A DNA stretch of 50,391 bases from a virus: positions 1-50,391 of IMG/VR virus record IMGVR_UViG_3300042402_001650, one strand, 5' to 3'. Position 1 is the first letter of the stretch; every line of letters begins with the position of its first letter. This document shows, one piece after another, positions 10,251 through 10,315 of the stretch. Under the pieces are notes generated by a model, which saw only the letters and a list, made by a program, of their open reading frames with translations, did no database searches and was not told the DNA's origin. Position numbers and translations under genes: made by a program.

Positions 10251-10315
10251 AAAATAACAGGATACGCTTTGCTTTTTTCCAAATAAAAAGTTGTTTTGAT
10301 TGCTGAAAGTATCCT
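10251..10315 (-). ncRNA. Y-like RNA element 4, short form between tRNAs
   Basis: Closing stem AGGATAC/GTATCCT (10309-10315 with 10259-10265), TTTCAGCAATCAAAAC inside and GTTATTTT outside, as in elements 1-3. The inner part has only one weak hairpin (CTTTTT/AAAAAG). It lies between tRNA-Met and tRNA-Asn, 3 kb upstream of the other three copies. Confidence 0.6.

Follow-up and report, generated by a model that had tools for sequence, protein, structure and literature searches.

The window analysed here is the whole 50,391 nucleotides (nt) of virus record IMGVR_UViG_3300042402_001650, and the element in question, E4, lies on its minus strand in a tRNA cluster, flanked by the genes for tRNA-Asn (10173-10247) and tRNA-Met (10322-10399). 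We conclude that E4 probably encodes a non-coding RNA only 57-60 nt long, the phage having five such elements, and that this RNA is a Y RNA ligand of a Ro60-like DUF2828 protein whose gene is 3.0 kb from E4, with E4 upstream. The evidence comprises the anatomy of the element, the covariation of its stem, its strand and gene linkage, the predicted Ro60 fold of the protein and the tRNA mimicry of the inserts. E4 belongs to a large, previously undefined family of phage small RNAs found beside a Ro60-like gene, often with imitation tRNA parts, whose core signature is common to an orphan RNA class of social amoebae. E4 and the Ro-like gene are placed as follows.

10257..10315, minus strand: E4, A-GGATAC-TTTCAGCAA-34 nt insert-GTATCC-UGUU; 34.9 bits to the class I RNA model RF01414 (model positions 1-56); fold z score -2.06
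5804..7243, minus strand: Ro-like open reading frame (ORF), DUF2828/DUF7788 protein with a predicted Ro60 fold, a helical-repeat ring plus a vWA domain with a DVSGSM metal-ion-dependent adhesion site

Anatomy, covariation and gene linkage of the element

On the minus strand, E4 reads in order TTTT, AGGATAC, TTTCAGCAA, TCAAAACAACTTTTTATTTGGAAAAAAGCAAAGC, GTATCCT and GTTATTTT. A preliminary description of this DNA had noted the AGGATAC/GTATCCT 7-mer stem, TTTCAGCAA, a 43-nt interior and GTTATTTT, all of which are present in the sequence, together with the lack of an anticodon-like hairpin, which was confirmed; the insert folds into a 6-bp stem with the loop ATTTGGA, a plain A/U-rich hairpin, and heads such as CTTTTTATTGGAAAAAAG in a subset of relatives resemble that of E4. 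The family signature proposed at that time, a 7-mer stem plus GTTR, held for the stem and motif and is refined here, the conserved outer frame being A-G...C-UG(UU).

A strict rule (A, a G-stem of at least 6 pairs, a gap of 0-4, CAGCAA, 15-240 nt, the complementary stem strand, C-TGTT) matched the window four times, each time on the minus strand (10257-10315, 7247-7308, 7316-7433 and 7455-7589). E4 had been counted as the fourth copy; the four strict copies stand, and a further, diverged fifth lies at 7831-7611. When the window was shuffled 400 times by a first-order Markov model, one copy appeared in 8 shuffles and more in none, while 2000 shuffles of the region 4900-12700 gave one copy in 5. 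The preliminary description had named an equal frequency in shuffled controls as its refutation; the motif set is far rarer in these controls than in the window, and chance in AT-rich DNA was ruled out by the shuffles and stem complementarity.

Covariation was examined with only AGGAT...CAGCAA and ATCCTGTT fixed, so that the other two stem pairs were unconstrained by the detection rule; this fixed-anchor test was used in place of a covariance model, as MAFFT alignment of 24 short copies, with their variable inserts, misplaced the 3' stem. Both free pairs were Watson-Crick in 205 of the 209 distinct segments, with all four pair types present, compared to a mean of 40 and a maximum of 65 complementary segments when the 3' letters were dealt at random (10,000 trials). 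The other stems were complementary too (GGTT, 51/53; GAAT, 38/39; GATT, 4/4; GGAA, 5/5).

Inserts form a short class of 26-43 nt and longer classes. Of 138 distinct short inserts, 57 formed an arm with four or more pairs capped by a 7-nt YUNNNRN loop, versus 9 of 2760 shuffled (0.3%), and the dominant loops, CUUUUAA, CUUGUAA and CUUCUAA, are those of Lys UUU, Thr UGU and Arg UCU. The T-loop motif was found in 106 of 150 long inserts versus 12.5% of shuffles. A tRNA-like domain was seen in E2 and in most long inserts; E4 is without one. The other copies of the window are as follows.

7247..7308, minus strand: E3, A-GGTTAA-TTCCAGCAA-insert-TTAACC-UGUU; RF01414 20.2 bits
7316..7433, minus strand: E2, A-GAATGC-GTTCAGCAA-insert-GCATTC-UGUU; YrlA model RF02553 36 bits (model 23-87/114); tRNA 22.3 bits; fold z score -2.85
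7455..7589, minus strand: E1, A-GGATAG-GTACAGCAA-insert-CTATCC-UGUU; fold z score -3.67
7611..7831, minus strand: E0, the diverged fifth copy, GGGTTGG-ATACAGCAC-insert of about 200 nt-CCAACCC, then GATTTTTTTT; whole-RNA fold z score only -1.15

E3, which ends 3 nt ahead of the Ro-like match, carries an anticodon-arm-like hairpin (TTCGA-CTGCTAA-TCGAA, loop CUGCUAA), and E1 an anticodon-like arm (CTCATAA) with T-arm-like hairpins. The insert of E2 folds as a circularly permuted tRNA inside the terminal stem, with the anticodon arm CTTGTAA, a T arm, a closed acceptor stem and a D arm. The core of E0 reads CAGCAC, and its relatives in loci L010 and L016 keep CAGCAA and the canonical end CCTGTT; its insert, which had no Rfam match, contains GGAGGACCACCG and CTGACGCTGGAAAGACAG and is partly common to L010, L011, L014, L016 and L019.

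The motif also occurs inside tRNAs. Near the DUF2828 gene of Cronobacter phage S13, Citrobacter phage Ci1, Synechococcus phage BUCT-ZZ01 and Aeromonas phage Ahp1, tRNAs have the D arm and the anticodon arm separated by a further hairpin that consists of an A-rich link, a stem, a UG..A loop, the second stem strand and UUC(A/U)GCA. Where listed, these tRNAs are annotated as tRNA-Ser, tRNA-OTHER or pseudo, and upon folding most of their arms stay in place. One module therefore serves as terminal stem or internal hairpin, since the hairpin-bearing tRNA and the permuted form agree in cyclic order, and in both the closing G-C pair is flanked by U-G and A. tRNAs with a stem-CAGCA or CTGCA hairpin at the junction of D arm and anticodon arm were recorded at L203 (7943, 8059), L205 (7948, 8071), L204 (7617, 7748) and L213 (9372).

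As the preliminary description had suggested, a pattern search in related phages recovered the element, nearly always on the strand of the DUF2828 gene. The window and 80 viral loci with close homologues held 242 strict copies, of which 241 were on the gene strand (241:1), 237 upstream of the gene and 84 within 250 bp upstream; most DUF2828 loci have 1-8 copies each, and the copies have A/U-rich flanks, TTTA before and GATTT after. With Felixounavirus, Listeria and jumbo-phage homologues as queries, 41 copies were found in 23 of 47 loci, again on the gene strand (41:0), compared to 0.7 per shuffled set; for such distant DUF2828 phages the rule was relaxed to a tail of UG instead of UGUU, as required for Felixounavirus, Listeria, Campylobacter and some Aeromonas copies. 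Felixounavirus copies lie downstream of the gene. A set obtained by profile search gave 69 copies on the gene strand and 0 on the other, in 46 of 80 loci. Cultured phages also carry the element, among them the Felixounavirus fjerdesal of E. coli K-12, whose copies lie at 14.4-15.1 kb of MN850605.

Linkage was also seen in a pattern scan of viral contigs made blind to the gene, which, among the matches listed, gave 97 matches, 60 of them closed by the strict rule. Among the same matches, 47 records had a closed element, and 28 of them had DUF2828 on the same contig, made up of 20 of the 39 searched and 8 known from the close-homologue set; of 32 records without the element, 3 had the gene, and two of those 3 have variant-tail closures. 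For contigs of at least 40 kb within the 39 searched element-bearing records, the fraction was 9/11. Near DUF2828 on 80 bacterial or archaeal contigs, the gene strand had 14 copies and the opposite strand 1, with shuffled sets giving 2.7 for the two strands together; only a few of these look real. Contigs of this kind with the motif near a DUF2828/Ro60-like gene are L363, L366, L368, L374 and L389. Such genes are common among contigs attributed to Clostridia, Synergistaceae, other bacteria and Lokiarchaeota (L363-L442).

The Ro60-like DUF2828 protein

The Ro-like ORF as listed starts at a TTG at 7243, and the aligned proteins start at the ATG at 7228. With Pfam at E 0.001, the protein matched only DUF7788 (E 2.9e-50) and DUF2828 and not TROVE, and a sequence search of the Protein Data Bank (PDB) found no relative; Ro60 was found by fold comparison alone. 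An AlphaFold2 model built with 42 relatives had a mean pLDDT of 77.9 and a pTM of 0.73. In a VIA fold comparison of residues 27-474, the model gave Z scores of 17.6 to 9kop (listed as Trove domain), 16.6 to the Ro60 of Thermus phage phiLo, 14.1 to human Ro60, 13.9 to the Xenopus protein and 12.5 to that of Deinococcus, with single-domain vWA matches at Z of 9.5 or less; the best PDB match by Foldseek was Rsr of D. radiodurans (E 4.2e-6). The nearest entries in viral model libraries were DUF2828/vWA proteins from phages and from protist-infecting giant viruses. Because Pfam TROVE was not matched, we assign the DUF2828 protein, by its predicted structure, as a Ro60-fold protein outside the TROVE sequence family.

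The terms used in the preliminary description, a Y-like element, a family with a variable insert and a Ro-like gene, are thus backed by the relatives, the stem covariation and the predicted Ro60 fold. That interpretation was right only in part; it overlooked the core shared with class I RNAs, the anticodon-arm and permuted-tRNA inserts, and the motif inside otherwise normal tRNAs.

The protein is represented by 682 phage records. In two records, G028 (L138) and G067 (L151), the DUF2828 gene matched as two segments separated by about 1 kb, a pattern that an intervening gene or an intron would produce. Two promoter-like sites lie near the E0-E3/Ro array of the window.

7853..7881, minus strand: sigma-70 promoter TTGACA-17-TATAAT, just ahead of E0 and thus of the whole E0-E3/Ro array; 12/12 consensus matches, chance matches being common in the scan
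7593..7621, minus strand: second promoter-like site, TCGACC-17-TATAAT with TG, directly upstream of E1

Judged by its sequence, the 12/12 site could drive E0-E3 and the Ro-like gene. Elsewhere in the window, inverted repeats at 12038-12058/12170-12190 (21 nt, perfect) and 11370-11388/11480-11498 (19 nt, 89%), each enclosing about 100 nt, lie between tRNA genes, extend into tRNA ends and resemble further structured RNAs or closed precursors. A tRNA-Tyr-like sequence (loop CTGTAAA, long variable arm) at 11500-11587 on the minus strand is absent from the ARAGORN list.

Proposed mechanism and alternative explanations

We propose that the copies would be transcribed and trimmed to their stem ends, and that each would present a docking module with three parts: the outer frame A-G...C-UG, a stem of 6-8 bp whose sequence is free to vary, and a single-stranded NN(U/A)NCAGCAA beside the 5' strand of the stem. 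The protein would bind the A-G/C-UG stem and CAGCAA module, with the head projecting from the particle. The variable insert would be a swappable head, mimicking a tRNA or an anticodon arm in most copies and forming a plain A/U-rich hairpin in E4. More speculatively, and with appreciable doubt on our part, tRNA-like heads on a Ro particle might attract tRNA-acting enzymes (anticodon nucleases, tRNA decay or repair enzymes) as decoys or as recruiters and nuclease tethers, and short headless forms such as E4 might occupy, stabilise or gate the protein. A Y RNA of Deinococcus tethers PNPase. A decoy role against anticodon nucleases has been suggested for YrlA (PMC7790460).

Some transcript and protein data are available for Listeria phage CKA15, whose DUF2828 homologue CKA15_055 was detected with 20 peptides in purified particles and whose DUF2828 gene has three highly transcribed non-coding regions within 2 kb upstream, suspected by the authors to be Y RNAs and left undefined (PMC12282133). 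We located three motif copies at 25,291-25,551 of OR088597, immediately upstream of this gene. The most abundant non-coding transcript region is 26,236-26,727 (L219), where two ORFs take up to 34% of all transcripts (PMC12282133); the motif family gives no explanation for this abundance.

Several observations weigh against a Y RNA family partnered with DUF2828 proteins. The CKA15 region with the most reads, 26,236-26,727, has no motif, and that the motif copies overlap the other two transcribed regions, whose coordinates the text of the paper omits, is a prediction. Of the 39 newly searched element-bearing records, many of them short, 19 have no DUF2828 gene on the contig, and conversely no copy was found within 5-6 kb of the DUF2828 gene in Vibrio nt-1, Stenotrophomonas DLP6, Erwinia SNUABM_19, Mycobacterium LeBron, Sinorhizobium phiM7, Salmonella 7t3 or Pseudomonas Milchi. 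The three locus sets overlap in part, and relatedness among their loci further keeps the counts from being independent. Finally, no phage copy reaches the gathering cut-off of RF01414 (41.5 bits; E4 34.9, best 40.1), and with YrlA RF02553 (cut-off 69 bits) E2 scores only 36 and E4 has no match.

Other readings of the elements account for part of the data. Functional tRNA precursors, in which the permuted and insert-bearing forms would use the Ro-binding hairpin as an intron-like or maturation handle, would agree with the presence of every tRNA arm in E2 and with the cloverleaf kept around the motif in the tRNAs of Cronobacter S13, Citrobacter Ci1, Aeromonas Ahp1 and Synechococcus ZZ01. We regard this as unlikely, however, as most copies, including E4, are without acceptor, D and T arms, the acceptor ends of E2 are joined via a short loop, and splicing activity at this site is not known. 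Quite unlikely, too, is a purely cis-acting role as processing or regulatory hairpins (cleavage marks, autoregulation of the Ro-like mRNA and tRNA precursor) with no free RNA: although E0-E3 sit in the leader of the Ro-like gene and the A/U-rich flanks resemble single-stranded cleavage sites, E4 and many relatives lie kilobases off among tRNAs, Felixounavirus copies are downstream of the gene, the heads mimic tRNAs, the motif is found within tRNAs as well, and closed terminal stems with a conserved inner motif better suit a free RNA.

The preliminary description had held the family to be mobile or duplicated. Duplication within the phage followed by divergence is plausible, most loci having 1-8 copies, but mobility finds no support, as copies keep the gene strand and stay beside the gene or in the adjacent tRNA cluster. 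A mobile repeat of MITE or REP type, or a selfish duplicated element with no phage function, is accordingly disfavoured and very improbable. The several copies per genome and their variable interiors would suit it, but stem sequences vary between copies with complementarity kept, interiors are unrelated, strand and gene linkage is nearly absolute, and no transposase or target-site duplication turned up, although no dedicated search for hallmarks or empty sites was made. Compared to these alternatives, the Y RNA reading is strongly preferred.

Relation to class I RNAs, YrlA and other known systems

The mimicry of tRNAs by Y RNAs is already known. Phage Ro-like proteins have likewise been described (PMC7824862, PMC7765460, PMC12363180), and in the open-licence literature we found no published definition of the motif family, its two topologies, the anticodon-arm heads or the class I link. 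The family provides a probable RNA partner, defined by sequence and structure, for a widespread phage protein usually annotated as hypothetical or DUF2828, and it gives a specific possible reason why at least one Listeria phage makes abundant non-coding RNAs that had lacked an explanation. The anticodon-arm heads, mostly with the loops of Lys UUU, Thr UGU and Arg UCU, point to a phage counter-measure to tRNA-cutting defences or a device for tRNA quality control, and the orphan class I RNAs of Dictyostelium gain a possible relative and a candidate protein partner.

Class I RNAs, reported in dictyostelids only, start with AAG and have a 6-bp stem, an 11-nt motif with invariant T3, C6, C9, A10 and A11 and a CUGU end; their binder is the RNA-recognition-motif (RRM) protein Rnp1A (PMC7919456). 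RF01414 matched E4 over the full length with an E value of 1.4e-6 for this record, the identity past the motif extending over CAGCAAU.AAAACAA.UUUU of the consensus. At E 0.01, the model matched 33 of 50 DUF2828 records versus 0 of 14 control genomes, and, of the 43 hits that were mapped, 39 begin no more than 6 nt from the start of a same-strand copy defined by the motif. Among 27 phage records without closed elements, it matched only the one with DUF2828 (0/26 without). Of 15 records from cultured and distant DUF2828 phages, 11 were matched at E 0.05, but so were 4 of the 14 control genomes at that threshold. The end-joining stem of class I RNAs is found in E4 as GGATAC/GTATCC followed by UGUU, with the 5' G paired with C, and the whole family is alike. 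All five motif positions are present in E4 (ACTTTCAGCAA) and E3 (AATTCCAGCAA), and E1 and E2 have G at position 3; E4 and E3, at about 60 nt, fit the class I length of 42-65 nt with a variable middle, and E0-E2 are longer. E4 and E3 thus agree with the published class I points, except for A or T ahead of AG.

Convergence or a common A/U-rich composition, not common ancestry or a common binding partner, comes near to an even chance as the source of this likeness. The common part is limited to a short stem, some 9-11 nt and the end nucleotides, every RF01414 score is below the cut-off (maximum 40.1 of 41.5 bits), and the class I binder is an RRM protein rather than a Ro protein (PMC7919456). Against convergence stand the specificity of RF01414 for the records and copies above and the fact that E4 and E3 have the five near-invariant positions, begin with AG, carry the 6-bp stem, end in CUGU and fall within the class I length range. 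We tentatively entertain, short of an even chance, that phage Y RNAs and class I RNAs form one ancient family, in which a docking module AG-stem-NNNCAGCAA...stem-CUGU may be recognised by DUF2828 proteins of the Ro60 fold in phages, bacteria and amoebae alike, with phages having made the module a carrier for anticodon-arm and tRNA decoys.

Among known systems, the DUF2828 protein resembles Ro60/Rsr/TROVE proteins (2nvo, 1yvr, 9nen, 9kop, 9l5y) over its full length in the helical-repeat ring and C-terminal vWA domain, but with an identity of 11-17% only and with matches to DUF2828 and DUF7788 instead of TROVE. As in Y RNAs, the elements stand beside a Ro60-type protein, on the evidence of fold prediction and locus linkage. 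YrlA with Rsr is alike in the adjoining Ro60-fold gene and, for E2 and most long inserts, in combining a stem module with a tRNA-like head, to which that of E2 aligns; the sub-cut-off match, however, spans the tRNA-like domain and not the stem module, E4 is without that domain, and the phage partner is DUF2828, not Pfam TROVE. E2 shares with circularly permuted tRNAs the order anticodon arm, variable loop, T arm, acceptor 3' strand, short loop, acceptor 5' strand and D arm, but its permutation point is where the D arm meets the anticodon arm, and it is framed by the conserved stem-CAGCAA module. Class I RNAs are alike in the AG start, the variable 6-bp stem with compensatory changes, the motif ending in CAGCAA, the variable middle, the CUGU end and the length of 42-65 nt; E4 differs from them in its phage source, a motif one nucleotide nearer the stem, its sub-cut-off score and its DUF2828 neighbour, and the phage family differs in having members with tRNA-like heads, Rnp1A being the known class I binder.
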